Notes under the pieces: model-generated
The model's database searches: none
The model's input: only the letters and a program-made list of their open reading frames with translations
What the model was told of the DNA's origin: nothing
Position numbers and translations under genes: made by a program
Source of the DNA: a virus
DNA: 29,857 nucleotides
Strand: one strand, 5' to 3'
Virus record (IMG/VR): IMGVR_UViG_3300045999_004110
Span: 1 to 29,857 of that record
In this document: positions 3,868 through 25,663 of the stretch, one piece after another
Layout of the letters: each line of letters starts with the position of its first letter
How positions within the stretch are numbered: the first letter of the stretch is position 1

Positions 3868-6800
3868 ATGGCGATGTCCCTCGACACGGCGATCAAGTTC
3901 ACGGCGAAGCTGGAAGGGCAGGGGCTCGACCAGCTGAAGCGTGGGCTGCAGGGCATGGCTCAGCAGGCCAACCGCTCGAGCAAGGATCTCGATCAGCTCT
4001 ACAACGCCAACAAGAAGCTCTCGCAGGCGGCCGGGCAGTCGATCAACTCGCTGAATCGGCAGGTGACGGTGCTCACCAACCTGCGCAATGAGGCGGCGCT
4101 CGGCAGCCGGCAGTTCAAGTTCTACAGCGCGGAGCTGGAGAAGCTGCAGCGGCAGCAGGCCAAGCTGACGGGCACCACCAAGGGCGGCGGCGGGCTGCTG
4201 GCGATGGGTGGCGGCCTTGGCGGGCTGGCTGTGGCGGCTGGCGGCGGCCTGGCGGTGAAGTACATCGCCGACGTGGGGCTCGAGTCTGAGAGCGCGCAGG
4301 TGCGCCTGAAGGCGCTGGCCGATGAGTTTGGTGAATACAACCAGGCGCAGGCTGCCGCGGCACGGATCGCGCAGACGCTGCGCATCAGCACCACGGAAGC
4401 GCAAGGCAGCTTTGCCTCCCTCTATGCATCGCTGCGCCCGACCGGCATCACCATTCAAGAGCTCGAGAAGGCCTTCATCGGATTCTCGGCAGCAGCCCGC
4501 AACAGCGGCGCCACGGCGCAGGAAACCAGCAACGCATTGATCCAGCTAAAGCAGGGTCTGGCCTCCGGCGTGCTGCAGGGTGAGGAGCTGCGCTCCATCC
4601 GTGAACAGGCGCCACTGGCGGCGCAGGCGATCGCCAAGGAGCTCGGCGTTTCGATCGGTGAGCTGAAGAACTTGGCGGCCGAAGGCAAGGTCACCACCGA
4701 CGTGGTGCTGCGGGCGCTGGGCAAGCTGCAGGACACCCAGCTCGGCAAACTCAACGCGCAGTTCCAGACCGGTGCGCAGGCACTGGCTGACCTGCAAAAC
4801 GAGCTCCGCCGCACCGGTGAAGGCATCGCCAAGGCCTTCGGGCCGGCCGCGATCGTCCTGCTGCGTGGTTTCACCAGTGCGCTGCAGCGCGTGTCGGATG
4901 CGCTGCGACTGACGGAAGGTTCACAGGAGCGCGAAGCGGATCGGATCCGCGCCACCATTCAGGCGCAGAAGGAAGCCAGCAAGAAGTTCGGCATCGGCGG
5001 CTTCTTCCGCTACGGCTTCGAGATCGACCGCTTCCAGAACCAACGCGCTGAGGAGCTGTTCGCTCAGTTCCAGGCTGCGCGGCGCCAGCAGGCGATGGGC
5101 GCGATGGGCGACAACCCCAGCGCCGACCAGCGCGAGGCACGTGAGGCTGCTGCCGGCGAGCGTGAGGCTGCCCGCCAGCGTGCGCGCAAGGAGGCGCTGG
5201 AGGACGAGCTGAAGATCCGCAAGGATGCGGAGGAGAAGCTGGCGGATGCAGCGCAGCGCAATGCTGAGCAGATCGCCGACTTCCAGCGCGAGACGATCAA
5301 GCGCGCGATGGAGCTCGAGCGCGATCTCGGTGATGAGCGGCTGAAGATCGAGCGGCAGATCGCCGACACGCGCACCAAGCTGCAGCAGACACTGGAGGAT
5401 CGAGCGCTCGAGGCCGAGCGGCAGCGGCTGGCTGCTGCCGGGCTCTCCACTGAGGGCATCGAGACCGCCAAGGAGGTGAAGGAGATCTTCCGCCGCTATG
5501 ACGAGCAGCGGATTGAGAACGAGCGCGGCGCCGTCGATGCTCAGACCGATCTGCAGCGCCGGCTGGAGGAGTTCAAGATCAGCGTGGCCGAGGGCATCGG
5601 CAAGCTGCAGGAGGGCTACGCGCGCCAGGTCAGCAACATCCTGCAGGACGCAGGCCAGAAGCTGGCGGAGAAGATGAAGCAGGGCGCCGAGGCTGCTGCT
5701 GCCACGCTCGGCGGTGCAACAGGCAGTGGCACTGGCGCTGTCGGCCAGGTGTCGGCCAATGGTCCATCCATTGCGCAGGCGCTGATGGCTGGCTTGGGCA
5801 TCACCAAAGCCCAGGCCGCGGGCATCGTCGGCAATCTGCAGCGAGAAAGCGGTCTGAACCCGCGGGTCAATGAAGGCGGCTTTGTTGGTCTTCCGCTTGG
5901 CGTGGGTGGTTACGGCCTAGCGCAGTGGACTGGTGGCCGGCAGCAGGCGTTGCGGCGCTTTGCTGGCTACGACGACAAGAAAGCAGGAGATCTGCAGACG
6001 CAGGTCAGGTTCATCATTGCCGAGCTGCTGGGACCCGAAAACAAGGCGCTGCAAAAGCTCCGCGAGACTGTCTCACCCGAGCAGGCCGCTGTCGTTTTCG
6101 ACAAGTACTACGAGCGTTCTGGCATCAAAGCTCTCGATGAGCGCAAAGCCAATGCTCGCGCTGTGTTTACCAGACTGGGCAGCGCTGCGCCGATGGCGCC
6201 TGCACTGCCACCGGCAACCGCTCCGGCCATGGCTGGCGTGACGCAGGCCGGCGCCAGCCTCAGCGCGGCTCAAGGTGCGCTCGCCAAGCAGCAGCAGCTG
6301 GTAAACGAGCAGCAGACCGTTGCGGCGCTGGAGCAGAAGTACGGAGCAATCACCGATGCGCTCAGCCGCCAGCAGGAGGCGGCCGGCAACAAGCTGCGCG
6401 ATGAGGTGCGCTATTTCGAGCTGCTGAAGCAGGGCATCAGCCCTGAGATCGCCAAGCAGCGCGTGGAGTTGGAAGGTGTGGCCGCGATCGAAAAGCTGAA
6501 GCTGGAGGCGCTGCAGACCGAGCTCGAGGCGCGGATCGCCACGTTGCCGGTTGAAAGTGCGCTGCGTCAGGAACTGGAAAGGCAGGTTGCGGCGATCGAA
6601 GACCGACTGAACCTGCAAGGGCAGATCGTGGACAAGACGATCGCGCTATCTGAAGCCGAGCGGAAGGCTAACGAACAACGCGAGCGGCAGCAGCGCACCA
6701 TCGATGCGGTGGCCAACAGCATCGGCGACGGCCTCTCTCGCGCGTTTGATCTGCTGGCGACCGGCACCGATGACTGGGGCGCAAGCCTCAAGGAGATCGC

Positions 6801-22303: not shown

Positions 22304-22330
22304 GGCCCGCTTCGGCGGGCCTTTTTTTTT
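22304..22330 (+). terminator. Strong intrinsic terminator
   Basis: GGCCCGC (22304-22310) pairs perfectly with GCGGGCC (22315-22321) around a UUCG tetraloop, followed by nine T (22322-22330). It ends the plus-strand gene at 22109-22297 and separates it from the minus-strand early genes. The 90 nt beyond (22331-22420) hold nothing recognisable. Confidence 0.93.
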
Positions 22331-22420: not shown

Positions 22421-22495
22421 GCACCCAGGCGGGATTCGAACCCGCATCGTCCTGCAGCGCAGTGACCGCCCTGTCCGATTGGTTCGCACTGGGTG
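22421..22495 (-). tRNA. tRNA-like element with an abnormal core (possibly degenerate tRNA or att-related)
   Basis: On the minus strand, CACCCAG (22495-22489) and CTGGGTG (22428-22422) form a perfect 7-bp acceptor stem, with a C at 22421 as discriminator. The T arm is perfect: GCGGG (22445-22441), loop TTCGAAT, CCCGC (22433-22429). Total length is 75, as in a tRNA, and the D-loop-like AATCGG is present. However, I cannot fold a regular D stem or 5-bp anticodon stem in the 43 nt between, so no anticodon is assigned. No CCA is encoded. Either a decayed or unusual tRNA, or a tRNA mimic. Confidence 0.45.
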
Positions 22496-22532: not shown

Positions 22533-22619
22533 CTACGGCAGGATCCTGCTGCACACCCACAGCGCGATCAGGCACGTCGCCCAATACTCGAGCACCAGCA
22601 CCAGCACGTCGCGCAGCAT
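22533..22619 (-). CDS. Very small membrane protein (28 aa)
   Basis: Begins in a TGATG overlap with the previous minus-strand gene and reads RDVLVLVLEYWATCLIALWV, one membrane helix, ending in CSRILP. It is the last gene of the minus-strand train. The precise coupling and pure hydrophobic pattern support it, but the length makes it uncertain. Role unknown. Confidence 0.45.
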   Translation of the reverse strand: MLRDVLVLVLEYWATCLIALWVCSRILP

Positions 22620-22792
22620 CAGCGTGCCAGCAGGTGGTCGAGGTAGAGCTCGGCCTGCCACAGGTCGCTCGAGTAGCGGCAGATCCCACCGACGCAGCTG
22701 CGGTAGTACAGCTCACCGCCACCATCAGGCTCCAGCGTTTCGATCCATCCGCCGTCACGATCCGTGCGGCTGATCACCTTCGGCTGGCTCAT
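22619..22792 (-). CDS. Small conserved phage protein (57 aa), function unknown
   Basis: Start chosen at the Met of MSQPKVISRTD (22792). The sequence DRDGGWIETLEPDGGGELYY, YRSCVGGICRYSSDLWQAEL is compact and rich in aromatic residues, a type I recall in cyanophage early regions. It overlaps the preceding gene by 38 nt, the largest overlap in the train. Function unknown. Confidence 0.65.
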   Translation of the reverse strand: MSQPKVISRTDRDGGWIETLEPDGGGELYYRSCVGGICRYSSDLWQAELYLDHLLAR

Positions 22793-23102
22793 AGATCTCG
22801 CACTTCGCCGCATAGCGGCCGCCGCTCTGCTTCGATTCTGGCAACGCCAGTTCGCAGCGCTGCCGGTGGGTGCACCAATGCAGACAGTCCCAACACATGC
22901 GCTGGCCGCCAGCCGGGCGCAGCTTCACCAGCGCTGCCTCGTAGATCTTCTGCGCCCGCTGGAACGCTTCCTGCAGGTGCATGGTGCCGGTGTCAGCCTC
23001 CAGCTGGTGCTCGGGCTTCGGTCCAAGAATGACCCGTGCGTGCCAGTTCCGATCGGAGCGGCTGCACACCAGCAGCAGGCGGCCGGCGTGCAGTCTGATC
23101 AT
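22755..23102 (-). CDS. Cys-rich small protein (115 aa), possible metal binding
   Basis: Start at 23102 in an ATGA overlap. The N-terminal half is beta/alpha mixed (HAGRLLLVCSRSDRNWHARV). The C-terminal part holds Cys70, 73, 77, 83 and 101 within CWDCLHWCTHRQRCEL and AAKCEIYEP, which suggests zinc or an iron-sulphur cluster. A middle helix (AFQRAQKIYEAALVKLR) separates the two. No named family recognised. The longer in-frame extension to 23393 is rejected because it lies across another real gene. Confidence 0.6.
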   Translation of the reverse strand: MIRLHAGRLLLVCSRSDRNWHARVILGPKPEHQLEADTGTMHLQEAFQRAQKIYEAALVKLRPAGGQRMCWDCLHWCTHRQRCELALPESKQSGGRYAAKCEIYEPAEGDQPHGS

Positions 23103-23329
23103 TCTTCCTCGCCGTATGCCGGCTGATGGAAGATCCGCTCGAGCTGCATCGATGGCGGCTCGGTGTCGTTGTTGGTGACGTAGGCCGCCACCGGATCGCT
23201 CGGATCCGCAGCGGTGAACACGGTCGGCCAGAGCCGCTCCTTCACCACCACCAGACTGGTGCGCGGGCTGCGCACCAGAACCCACAGCGCTGCGCGCTCC
23301 AGCAGGTTCAAACCGGGCAGGTGCATCAT
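23099..23329 (-). CDS. Small early protein (76 aa), function unknown
   Basis: ATG 23329 overlaps the upstream stop as ATGA; a second ATG follows directly. The upstream sequence contains GGAGGG just before the start. The product has a helix LNLLERAALWVLVRSPRTSL and strands LVVVKERLWPTVF, AAYVTNNDTEPPS, ending acidic. I do not recognise it. Confidence 0.6.
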   Translation of the reverse strand: MMHLPGLNLLERAALWVLVRSPRTSLVVVKERLWPTVFTAADPSDPVAAYVTNNDTEPPSMQLERIFHQPAYGEEE

Positions 23330-23538
23330 CCCTCCAGTTTGCCGAGCAGTCGCCGCAGATACCACTGCGCCTTGGCCAGCGATACCGCCTCACCCTTGTG
23401 GCGCTCGCGCCAGGTGTACTTGATCACGTTGCCCTTGCAGTAGCCGCGAAACTCCTCCGGCGTCAGAGCGGCCTCGATCGCATCAATGCACTCGATGCCA
23501 CCCTGCCGGTAGTGGTCTGGGTTGATCTGGTCGTTCAT
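23326..23538 (-). CDS. DUF3310 protein (70 aa)
   Basis: The sequence NPDHYRQGGIECIDAIEAAL, TPEEFRGYCKGNVIKYTWRE, AKAQWYLRRLLGKLE is an almost complete match to the DUF3310 (SaV-like) family as I remember it, short helical proteins widespread in phages and sometimes labelled nucleotide kinase by weak analogy. The true role is not known. Start 23538 in an ATGA overlap with the HTH gene; the in-frame extension to 23577 is not needed. Confidence 0.85.
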   Translation of the reverse strand: MNDQINPDHYRQGGIECIDAIEAALTPEEFRGYCKGNVIKYTWRERHKGEAVSLAKAQWYLRRLLGKLEG

Positions 23539-23720
23539 TGCAGCCATCCCCATGCGATGCCCTTGCAGATGCGCCATGCGTGTTTCTTGTCGATCTCATA
23601 CCGGTCGGCCAGCTGTTGGTAGCTGAGCCCGGCAGCGCGAAGCTGGCGCAGCTCGCGCACCAGCTCCTCGCTCAGGATCACGGCGAAGTTCTCTTCACCG
23701 CGCTTGAACGGCCGGCTCAT
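23535..23720 (-). CDS. Small helix-turn-helix protein (61 aa)
   Basis: SEELVRELRQLRAAGLSYQQ, LADRYEIDKKHAWRICKGIA is a clear HTH of the homeodomain-like/resolvase type, with the recognition helix at about residues 44-54. A basic N-terminus (SRPFKRGEE) precedes it. Start at 23720 in ATGA overlap. Likely a DNA-binding regulator of early genes; the target is unknown. Confidence 0.7.
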   Translation of the reverse strand: MSRPFKRGEENFAVILSEELVRELRQLRAAGLSYQQLADRYEIDKKHAWRICKGIAWGWLQ

Positions 23721-23986
23721 CGCCACTTATCCCCCAGCAGCTGCTGGCGGCAGACCTCGATCGCCTGCTGCGCCTGCTTCTGCGTCATCACCGACTCGGT
23801 GGCATCCATGGCGCGCACCACGCGGGACAGCAGCTCGGGGTATGACGTGTCGCGGAAGTTGGCAGCCAGGTCGCGGCAGAACTCATCCCACAGCCCTGTG
23901 TAGGTGCCGCAGGTGCGGCCGCTGCGTTCGTAGAGCGCGTCCATCATGTCGGCGCGCATCTGGTCAAGCTTGACTGCTTCGCTCAT
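23717..23986 (-). CDS. Small helical protein (89 aa), function unknown
   Basis: An acidic helical protein (EAVKLDQMRADMMDALYERS; WDEFCRDLAANFRDTS; VMTQKQAQQAIEVCRQQLLG). Coupled on both sides by ATGA. No family recognised. Confidence 0.65.
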   Translation of the reverse strand: MSEAVKLDQMRADMMDALYERSGRTCGTYTGLWDEFCRDLAANFRDTSYPELLSRVVRAMDATESVMTQKQAQQAIEVCRQQLLGDKWR

Positions 23987-24180
23987 GGCTCGAGGAGTTG
24001 GCGGATGTGGAGCAGCTCAGCGCAGAGCTGCTGGCGGTTGCGGAGCCCAACGGTGCCGCACAGCTGATCGATGCGGATGTCGATCAGCTGGCGGATCCGC
24101 TGGCGCTCCTCAGTCTGACCAGCCGTGAACGCACTGGTGTCGCTCAGCAGCTGCTCGATGCGGTGGCGGATGTCGCTCAT
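23983..24180 (-). CDS. Small helical protein (65 aa), function unknown
   Basis: Starts at 24180 (MSDIRHRIEQLLSDTSAF), all helix, with many Gln and Arg (EERQRIRQLIDIRIDQLCG). Probably a coiled coil. Coupled by ATGA to the RlpA-like gene upstream and to the next gene. The upstream in-frame extension overlaps the RlpA-like gene and is rejected. Confidence 0.6.
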   Translation of the reverse strand: MSDIRHRIEQLLSDTSAFTAGQTEERQRIRQLIDIRIDQLCGTVGLRNRQQLCAELLHIRQLLEP

Positions 24181-24500
24181 GGATGCGAGATACGGACGGT
24201 GGCGATGCCATCGAGCGGCACACCAAGGCGGTGGGCAGCACCGGCGCTGAGATCGATCGAGCCGCAGTCGCACCGATCGGTGACGCGCACCGTGAGCGTG
24301 CGGCCGCGGTGGCTGACGCGCACCGGTGTGCCGCATGGCAGCCATGGATGCGCGGCGCTGATGCCCCAGTGCTGGTAGGTGGTACCGCAGTAGGTGGTGC
24401 GGCCGTGATACCAGCCGTCGTAGACCGTGGCGGTTACCTGCCGGGCGTGCACCGGGCTGGCCAGCAGCAGTGCGGCAGCGGTCAAGGCAGCGCGGATCAT
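24177..24500 (-). CDS. Secreted RlpA-like double-psi beta-barrel protein (107 aa)
   Basis: Residues 1-19 (MIRAALTAAALLLASPVHA) are a clear Sec signal peptide with an AxA-like cleavage site. The mature part is one double-psi beta-barrel: WGISAAHPWLPCGTPVRVSH, LTVRVTDRCDCGSIDLSAGA, then LGVPLDGIATVRI. His51, Asp75 and Asp83 match the conserved polar positions of RlpA lytic transglycosylases and related expansin-like proteins. Four Cys (38, 56, 77, 79) may form disulphides, fitting export. It would act in the periplasm on peptidoglycan or bind it. It is unusual in an early, tiny-gene operon far from the lysis cassette. Confidence 0.75.
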   Translation of the reverse strand: MIRAALTAAALLLASPVHARQVTATVYDGWYHGRTTYCGTTYQHWGISAAHPWLPCGTPVRVSHRGRTLTVRVTDRCDCGSIDLSAGAAHRLGVPLDGIATVRISHP

Positions 24501-24733
24501 GCCACCTCCACCGCAGCGCCCGGCCAGCGCGCCTGCGCGTAGCGGATCGCGTGCTTCTTCGATTCAGCGCGCGTGATCCACGTCATCGGGCGGGCACCCT
24601 GCGGGTAGACCAACAGCCGGAACTCCTTGGTGCGTGCCTTCGGCCGCGGCCGGCTGATGCCGTCACCGTGCTGGCTAGTGGGCTCCTCATCTCTCCATGC
24701 GAACGGCAGCATGGCGCCGGTGATCTCAGGCAT
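24497..24733 (-). CDS. Small basic protein (78 aa), function unknown
   Basis: The product starts PEITGAMLPFAWRDEEPTSQ and ends with a coherent unit KEFRLLVYPQGARPMTWITR, AESKKHAIRYAQARWPGAAV, a strand-helix pattern seen in several small phage proteins. ATGA overlap downstream, 8-nt overlap upstream. Function unknown. Confidence 0.6.
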   Translation of the reverse strand: MPEITGAMLPFAWRDEEPTSQHGDGISRPRPKARTKEFRLLVYPQGARPMTWITRAESKKHAIRYAQARWPGAAVEVA

Positions 24734-24890
24734 CGGTCTCTGGTGCAGGTGTGATCCACTCGATCTGTGACCACCACTCGATCCACGTGTCGGCGGCGAT
24801 CAGCTTGGCTTCAGTGAGGCTGGTGGCCGTGACGCACTCGAGCACGTTCGCGGCCTTGATCTGGAAGTAGTAGCGCTGGGTGTCAGTCAT
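24726..24890 (-). CDS. Small acidic protein (54 aa), function unknown
   Basis: ATG 24890 reads TDTQRYYFQIKAANVLECVT then SLTEAKLIAADTWIEWWSQI. The strand-helix layout, with residues YYFQIKA...A.SLTEAK, resembles the end of the next protein and other phage small proteins that take part in an unknown early function. Overlaps both neighbours by 8 nt. Confidence 0.55.
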   Translation of the reverse strand: MTDTQRYYFQIKAANVLECVTATSLTEAKLIAADTWIEWWSQIEWITPAPETDA

Positions 24891-25014
24891 GCCGCACCAC
24901 CTGCTGCGTGCCGGAGTGGGTGGGGCTGTGATGCGCGCCGGATTCGACGCCGATCATGGCGAACACACTCGCAGCGATCAGGCAGCAGATGGCGTTGTTG
25001 ATGTGGTTGATCAT
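24883..25014 (-). CDS. Very small membrane or exported protein (43 aa)
   Basis: Reads MINHINNAICCLIAASVFAM followed by IGVESGAHHSPTHSGTQQVV. One hydrophobic helix and a His/Ser/Thr-rich tail suggest a membrane anchor or signal peptide with a short exported end. Start in ATGA overlap with the gene upstream. Function unknown. Confidence 0.5.
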   Translation of the reverse strand: MINHINNAICCLIAASVFAMIGVESGAHHSPTHSGTQQVVRHD

Positions 25015-25205
25015 GATGCGAGCGCCCGGCGGACGCGGTAGCGGGTGAGGGTGAGGCGATCAGCGATCTGGCGCTGGCTGAGGCCGGTGCGGTGCAGGAC
25101 GCGGATGCGGCGATCGTCGCTGGCGGTCAGCCAGTCGATCACGGCGACCACCAGCAGCAGCGGCAGGAGCAGCTTCCAGATCACCAGGAGAGTGGCGGTG
25201 AACAT
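25011..25205 (-). CDS. Membrane-anchored helix-turn-helix protein (64 aa)
   Basis: First gene of the minus-strand train. Residues about 4-26 are a membrane helix (LLVIWKLLLPLLLVVAVIDW). Residues about 34-62 are an HTH (IRVLHRTGLSQRQIADRLTL, TRYRVRRALAS) like resolvase or sigma-type DNA-binding helices. A regulator held at the inner membrane is the direct reading. The start is ATG 25205 without a strong Shine-Dalgarno sequence; a TTG at 25235 would add ten residues. I recall similar short proteins in picocyanobacteria, but no function. Confidence 0.65.
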   Translation of the reverse strand: MFTATLLVIWKLLLPLLLVVAVIDWLTASDDRRIRVLHRTGLSQRQIADRLTLTRYRVRRALAS

Positions 25206-25381
25206 GGTGCAGTGTGGGTAGGTGTGCCGGGCCAACCGGCGGTGCAGCCTTACTCAGGGCGTGTTGGGCTCGTGGTGACGCGTCGTGTACCCGGTTCCGC
25301 GGGGAAGATTGTTTAGCGAGGGATCCCCGTCCCTCGTGTCACCACTATACACCGTAGACCGCGCACACTGTGCCCCTGCTG
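25206..25381 (-). promoter_or_regulatory. Probable control region of the minus-strand gene train
   Basis: A 176-nt gap. On the minus strand TATAGT (25349-25344) may be a -10 box; the expected start falls near 25337. There begins a perfect 7-bp hairpin: CGAGGGA (25317-25323) with TCCCTCG (25330-25336), 6-nt loop. GTGGTGAC (25272-25279) is repeated as its exact inverse GTCACCAC (25338-25345), flanking the hairpin and overlapping the -10 box. No good -35 is seen. These are candidate operator half-sites. Confidence 0.45.
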
Positions 25382-25654
25382 TCACACTTCGTTACGCCGC
25401 CACCGGTCGCGCTCCTCCACCGCCTCCACCCGCAGCTTGGTGTGCCCTGTGCTCAGCTCCAGCGGTACGCGCAGCACCGGCTTGTGCAGGTGCGCCACGC
25501 TCCAGCCCACCGCGTAGTCCGGCACCGCCAGCTCCACCGTGAACCACTTATGGCCGCACTCAGCGCACAGGCGCCGGCGCACCACCTGATCAGCCAGCCG
25601 ATTGTTCGTGATCGGCACACGCAGCGTTGTGCTCGAGCACTTAGGGCATTCCAT
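25382..25654 (-). CDS. NrdR-like zinc-ribbon protein without ATP cone (90 aa)
   Basis: MECPKCSSTTLRV and VRRRLCAECGHKWFTVEL match the N-terminal zinc ribbon of NrdR regulators (Cys3, 6, 30, 33, with the RRRxCxxCGxxF block). The ATP-cone domain of NrdR is missing; in its place are about 50 residues of unknown type, ending with a basic helix. It could bind DNA as a short phage regulator, perhaps at nrd-type boxes. Start Met at 25654; ATG 25663 would add three residues. The longer upstream frame overlaps the plus-strand gene and is rejected. Confidence 0.65.
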   Translation of the reverse strand: MECPKCSSTTLRVPITNNRLADQVVRRRLCAECGHKWFTVELAVPDYAVGWSVAHLHKPVLRVPLELSTGHTKLRVEAVEERDRWRRNEV

Positions 25655-25663
25655 GGGCAACAT

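Follow-up and report, generated by a model that had tools for sequence, protein, structure and literature searches.

A conserved structured RNA in front of a train of tiny, probably early genes in cyanophage genomes

How is a train of 13 tiny, overlapping genes expressed, and what does it do for the virus that carries it? The question is raised by the minus strand of IMG/VR virus record IMGVR_UViG_3300045999_004110 (the window, 29,857 bases), where a reading made from the letters alone (the sequence-only reading) had claimed 13 genes of 28–115 amino acids (aa) at 22533–25205. All 13 frames are present, and all start with ATG. The most novel thing found at this locus is not any of the 13 proteins; it is an RNA leader that lies outside this range, upstream of gene 1. 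The leader and its flanks comprise the following features:

25226–25337, minus strand: structured RNA leader of about 112 nt, with a 5′ domain (P1 and pseudoknot 1) and a core with pseudoknots 2 and 3, recognized by covariation.
25206–25225, minus strand: linker of 20 nt from the last hairpin to the start codon of gene 1, G-poor and lacking any Shine-Dalgarno (SD)-like tetramer, with length and composition conserved across contexts.
25344–25349, minus strand: putative -10 box (TATAGT) of an early promoter; 6 nt separate it from the first conserved base of the leader downstream.

Unexpected conservation of the 177-nt gap 5′ of gene 1 was detected by blast (for example 97% over 133 nt with locus L059, from a lineage that keeps the train only in part). 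Iterated nhmmer searches located the leader in 44 loci, in front of different genes, including those of Synechococcus phages S-CBS3 and S-CBS1. With an exact IUPAC pattern for its 3′ half matching at least 119 viral contigs, a strongly supported RNA family heads the early operon in many cyanophages, and since two cultured isolates carry it, the family is testable.

The core was aligned for 80 distinct sequences, with 19 pairs (P3, P4, P5, P6 and a loop-to-upstream helix). In this alignment 99.2% of the cells are paired, compared to only 24–44% in slid-pair controls. Double-sided changes number 178 against a shuffle mean of 43, and none of 500 shuffles scored as high; the shuffles keep relatedness in place, and the covariation figures are not probabilities. 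The covariation owes its weight to the presence of several pair types at one pair, such as A-U, G-C and C-G at columns 19/46. For the 5′ domain, 38 distinct type-A sequences were compared: 97.4% of the cells are paired, and pseudoknot 1, in which the loop of the 5′ hairpin pairs with a downstream segment, is 100% paired with 18 double-sided changes. Interlocking of P3 and P4 and pairing of the P6 loop with an upstream segment create two pseudoknots in the core, the latter (pseudoknot 3) consisting of two pairs only, one of them covarying (G-C, A-U). Taken together, the alignments support three pseudoknots in the leader RNA. The excess of G-U cells (35) over A-C cells (8) fits an RNA made from the minus strand, and the unpaired segments AAC, ACACGA, CAACA, TAAG and TTGG are invariant or nearly so. 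The folding energy of the leader (z = +0.56) is no evidence by itself, and the case for structure rests on covariation. A coding origin of the leader was rejected, as the length of the 5′ domain varies by non-triplets (43–51 nt) while the helices are kept. That the leader is a real conserved RNA family is nearly certain.

The family appears to be undescribed when set against the open-access literature; it may have been reported earlier outside that literature. A blastn search of 50,697 phage records returned only two carriers of the leader, S-CBS1 and S-CBS3, and in neither does the match overlap an annotated feature. No match at the gathering score was obtained with the 4227 models of Rfam release 15 in the window or in loci L003, L062, L188 and L172, and a permissive scan of the leader (E up to 10) returned only KCNQ1OT1_2, on the opposite strand and at 16.6 bits against 80. 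The Downstream-peptide, glnA, manA, wcaG and PhotoRC-II motifs are likewise structured 5′ untranslated region (UTR) RNAs of cyanobacteria or cyanophages, some of them in front of short open reading frames (ORFs); the leader matches none of these models, even in the permissive scan. A host origin was rejected, as the one exact pattern on which host absence rests was found in none of 84,980 prokaryote species genomes and plasmids were negative by blastn.

In the window the leader occurs as a single copy, its core matched by the covariance model at 25223–25304 (minus strand) with 101.6 bits, against 8.2 for the second-best match. Of 21 whole records with a match, 20 carry one copy, as counted with covariance model R1, in which P5 is one column off relative to R2 (71–102 bits, with one weak extra match at 24). 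Other arrangements were also observed. Locus L150 (1325–2270, minus strand) has two full copies in tandem with a 5′ fragment, a different small gene following each of them, and one linker is lengthened by AGCACTC repeats. In L204 near 5060–5470 (G025:C1:18230–18311, minus strand) and in L159, a terminator-like hairpin and T-run come directly after the promoter and leader, with no obvious gene, possibly forming a free-standing small RNA; this leader stands beside a convergent gene whose protein has a hydrophobic stretch.

A -10-like hexamer precedes the leader's first conserved base by 6 nt in 66 and by 7 nt in 7 of 74 distinct upstream sequences. Some copies have a near-consensus TTGACA box at 16–18 nt spacing, and the window's own -35 box is weak. 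The constant distance of the -10 box suggests that transcription starts with the structure, and the message probably begins at about 25337.

On the downstream side, a start codon lies within 45 nt of the leader in 63 of 85 distinct contexts, 18–23 nt from the last hairpin in 61 of these 63. These direct start codons belong to about 10 unrelated gene families, as obtained by our own merging of crude clusters. The linkers are composed of 48% C, 33% A, 13% T and 6.7% G, and GGAG, GAGG, AGGA and AAGG are absent from the last 18 nt of all 63 direct contexts; for comparison, 2003 ATG-initiated ORFs of at least 90 aa from the same loci show 27.9% G upstream and an SD-like tetramer in 22%. Where a 65-aa ORF (MDDITRN..) intervenes, at about 110 nt, GGAG precedes its ATG. 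Recurring across unrelated genes, the fixed spacing, the scarcity of G in the linker and the absence of an SD sequence point to translation initiation.

A second conserved RNA-like module, designated X (GCCAYAAGCCNGATAG..GGATNCTCCGC..GACAAGAG), takes the place of the 5′ domain in S-CBS1-like copies and stands alone elsewhere, with an SD-less AUG 19–20 nt downstream in most of 16 matches and with apparent compensatory changes as judged by eye. It was seen at L007:4321, L020:4967, L039:4194, L045:277, on the minus strand of L004 and at other sites, fused to the core in S-CBS1 and alone before gene 1 elsewhere.

We hypothesize, with about even confidence, that the leader is a new structured 5′-UTR RNA acting in cis on translation initiation of the early operon. 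The message would begin at about 25337 with the structured leader, in which the 5′ hairpin pairs its loop with a downstream segment (pseudoknot 1), followed by the interlocked P3 and P4 (pseudoknot 2), the small hairpin P5, and P6, whose loop pairs upstream (pseudoknot 3). P6 ends about 20 nt before the AUG of an SD-less gene; a 30S subunit sitting on that AUG would have its upstream edge at approximately this point. We infer that the folded RNA would either help to dock or position ribosomes at gene 1 or gate their docking, be the effect activation or regulation, and that overlapping stop and start codons would hand ribosomes down the train. Initiation at a structured, SD-less site has a precedent in the S1-dependent leader of E. 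coli rpsA (PMC10931766). There, too, a conserved structured 5′ UTR precedes a gene without a canonical SD sequence; the rpsA region, however, has A/U-rich single strands, is under autogenous control by S1 and serves one host gene, whereas the leader has an A/C-rich linker, is phage-borne and is common to many first genes.

Several observations weigh against this hypothesis. No start codon is present inside 45 nt in 22 of the 85 contexts, related downstream contexts are not independent, and the set of ORFs used for comparison contains spurious ones. The linkers are rich in A and C, unlike the A/U-rich type known for S1. In L157 and L159 the promoter and leader are followed at once by a terminator-like hairpin and T-run with no obvious gene, an arrangement that a role in trans or in transcription would fit better. 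SD-mediated initiation is reportedly favoured in cyanobacteria and cyanophages, and their SD-less genes are weakly structured near the start (PMC6847405).

A more specific version, which we put forward only tentatively, is that the leader resembles an internal ribosome entry site (IRES): its compact pseudoknotted fold would itself dock the 30S subunit and set the start codon distance without an SD sequence, and it would travel as a portable module among first genes unrelated to each other, a single conserved core being combined with interchangeable 5′ domains of types A, B and X. Should the leader indeed stand in for the SD signal, DNA phages would have their own equivalent of viral IRES elements, and the leader could serve as a portable part for expression in cyanobacteria.

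A different role, in transcription, is suggested by the position of the leader directly behind an early promoter, with one copy in 20 of 21 records, as is HK022 putL behind PL (PMC9378689). The leader may modify RNA polymerase by put- or EAR-like antitermination or anti-pausing, letting long early operons be read through. The intrinsic terminator directly after the leader in L157 and L159 would be consistent with such a role, and putRNA acts on a pause about 21 nt past its second stem, which could mimic the 20-nt spacing (PMC9378689). However, no minus-strand intrinsic terminator was found inside the train, and the constant start-codon distance, the lack of SD-like tetramers and the presence of module X inside operons would all be unexpected. 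Both elements head a phage early operon and follow its early promoter directly, but the put RNAs, which bind RNA polymerase and suppress termination, consist of two stem-loops within about 70 nt (PMC9378689), whereas the leader, at about 112 nt, has three covarying pseudoknots in place of two stem-loops and mostly lies 20 nt from a start codon. This reading is considered unlikely.

The invariant or nearly invariant unpaired segments, together with several pseudoknots, would also suit a riboswitch that senses a metabolite of the infected cell and switches translation of the first early gene, and candidate riboswitches of cyanophages (manA, wcaG) and the Downstream-peptide motif before short ORFs in cyanobacteria have been reported (PMC2864571). 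The roughly 10 unrelated families downstream share no common metabolic theme, though, most members have neither an SD sequence to mask nor a terminator alternative, and host genomes were negative with the pattern used, making a riboswitch rather improbable. We consider it very unlikely that the leader acts as a 5′ stability element, protecting the early mRNA from 5′-end-dependent decay without taking a direct part in initiation: the RNA does appear to start with structure at +1, but neither near-invariance of unpaired bases nor a fixed start-codon distance would be needed for protection.

The train behind the leader was compared with its relatives using gene 5 as query, which identified 259 related sites in viral contigs; 80 of these were retained. 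The sequence-only reading had made the train depend on conservation of its frames, and they are conserved: each has 34–93 distinct homologues in other viral contigs, the pooled ratio of nonsynonymous to synonymous polymorphism (pN/pS) is 0.30–0.48 for all 13 genes, and nonsynonymous divergence is below synonymous (dN<dS) in nearly all comparisons. Even for gene 13, with 28 codons, pooled pN/pS is 0.39, with dN<dS in 23 of 26 comparisons. By these substitution patterns, every frame of the train is under purifying selection, gene 13 included. When all 13 proteins were searched by tblastn against the fetched loci, at least 10 of 12 neighbour links were kept, in order, in 54 loci. Extra small genes on the same strand, mostly from a few recurrent families, stand at some junctions in relatives (g7/g8, g2/g3, g5/g6, g8/g9 and others), although many of the g7/g8 gaps may be merely unaligned gene ends. 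With the order kept and genes added at junctions, the train may be viewed as a conserved backbone with slots for additional tiny genes. The inserted cassettes include the recurrent families HPITPPPEL.., SELSPAAQ.., TDYRATPERW.. and GYIHSTMSAEAYYL.. (the last AP2-like by eye), at L045:1597–4352, in L007 between g8 and g9, in L041 and at other sites.

Upstream of the train are genes for an exonuclease, a RecT-like protein and an excisionase/helix-turn-helix (HTH) protein, which places it in the early (replication-side) half. The train lies on the same strand as recT and the exonuclease gene, and a single putative promoter with the leader stands in front of it. On this genomic context, the train is taken as the early operon of a cyanosiphovirus resembling S-CBS1 and S-CBS3; the host assignment is based on S-CBS1, S-CBS3 and shared genes, the remaining contigs being metagenomic. 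Both isolates carry the leader, unannotated, and gene 3; S-CBS3 keeps genes 3, 6, 7 and 12 and a transmembrane-HTH protein behind it. They differ in that most of the train is absent and a sigma-factor gene lies in the region: a group 2 sigma factor (rpsD4) is found in the early region of S-CBS3 (L003:6946–7845) and S-CBS1 (L004:344–1234), and the window lacks one. Just upstream of the leader, a gene at 25382–25663 (minus strand) encodes a protein with an NrdR-type zinc ribbon, and at 22304–22330 (plus strand) a strong intrinsic terminator of the rightward operon lies between the convergent operons, with no minus-strand counterpart seen.

From gene 1 to gene 13, all on the minus strand, successive overlaps are 4, 8, 8, 4, 4, 4, 4, 4, 1, 4, 38 and 1 nt:

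Gene 1, 25011–25205, minus strand: 64 aa; one membrane segment and a C-terminal HTH (weak match); homologues in 153 loci.
Gene 2, 24883–25014, minus strand: 43 aa; hydrophobic N-terminus.
Gene 3, 24726–24890, minus strand: 54 aa; phrog_22131 (unknown function); also in S-CBS1 and S-CBS3.
Gene 4, 24497–24733, minus strand: 78 aa; uncharacterized.
Gene 5, 24177–24500, minus strand: 107 aa; predicted exported RlpA-like DPBB protein with a signal peptide.
Gene 6, 23983–24180, minus strand: 65 aa; uncharacterized; in S-CBS3.
Gene 7, 23717–23986, minus strand: 89 aa; uncharacterized; 82% identity to the S-CBS3 copy.
Gene 8, 23535–23720, minus strand: 61 aa; HTH-like, with HTH_31 slightly under the cut-off.
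Gene 9, 23326–23538, minus strand: 70 aa; DUF3310.
Gene 10, 23099–23326, minus strand: 75 aa; uncharacterized.
Gene 11, 22755–23102, minus strand: 115 aa; conserved cysteines (CWDC..C..C).
Gene 12, 22619–22792, minus strand: 57 aa; uncharacterized; 75% identity to the S-CBS3 copy.
Gene 13, 22533–22619, minus strand: 28 aa; hydrophobic.

The small early genes, few of them named, make up a conserved operon with a common control element, and their expression is therefore open to study as one unit. The sequence-only reading had listed two HTH proteins, a Cys-rich protein and DUF3310 among them. Gene 9 lies well above the gathering score for PF11753 (DUF3310; 71.5 bits against 24, 6e-20) and the cysteines of gene 11 are conserved, while the HTH matches of genes 8 and 1 are weak. 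Its count of three exported or membrane proteins was slightly low, as inspection by eye shows a hydrophobic segment, N-terminal or single, in each of genes 1, 2, 5 and 13. AlphaFold models of genes 7 and 11 (pLDDT 62 and 66) were too poor to use, that of gene 7 being all-helical at low confidence.

In gene 5 the DPBB domain (PF03330, 2.3e-17) spans residues 24–104 of 107, the invariant residues are H51, D75, D83 and four Cys, and the best full-domain relative in the PDB is 4avr (PA4485, 9e-9). RlpA lytic transglycosylases have a C-terminal SPOR domain and a lipid anchor, whereas gene 5 has only the DPBB domain and signal peptide, with no SPOR domain and no lipobox (there is no Cys at the end of the signal peptide). 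RlpA-like proteins are annotated in many cyanophages, with up to about 44% identity to gene 5, which is thus of a known kind. It shares the DPBB fold family and predicted export with cyanophage RlpA-type proteins such as the S-CRM01 RlpA-like lipoprotein (38% identity), and differs from them in lacking SPOR and lipobox and in its place in the early train. Its only match in a genome is L203 (JAIXVM010000181.1), a 20-kb contig binned to a Hyphomonadaceae metagenome-assembled genome and probably a mis-binned phage contig.

Dense early operons of this type had been proposed to serve host take-over or anti-defence. The tightly packed, conserved early train is borne out, but nothing was found in support of either role. 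PADLOC, which covers defence proteins and not counter-defence ones, gave weak, partial matches only (E ≥ 0.006) in a scan of the train genes other than 2, 9 and 13, and the recognizable members (DPBB, DUF3310, HTH) give no pointer to anti-defence. The inserted cassettes are further tiny unnamed genes, on which no family-library search was made.

Behind gene 13, a stretch at 22422–22495 (minus strand) combines a perfect 7-bp acceptor (CACCCAG/CTGGGTG) with a T-arm (GCGGGTTCGAATCCCGC) and has no proper anticodon arm. A tRNA reading was set aside given this poor anticodon arm, the absence of ARAGORN predictions in the window and 18 loci, and the lack of a match to the Rfam tRNA model. The stretch is kept at the same place in about ten loci (L007, L019, L029, L045, L052 and others), and may represent a tRNA in decay, the remains of an attachment site or a mimic of tRNA.

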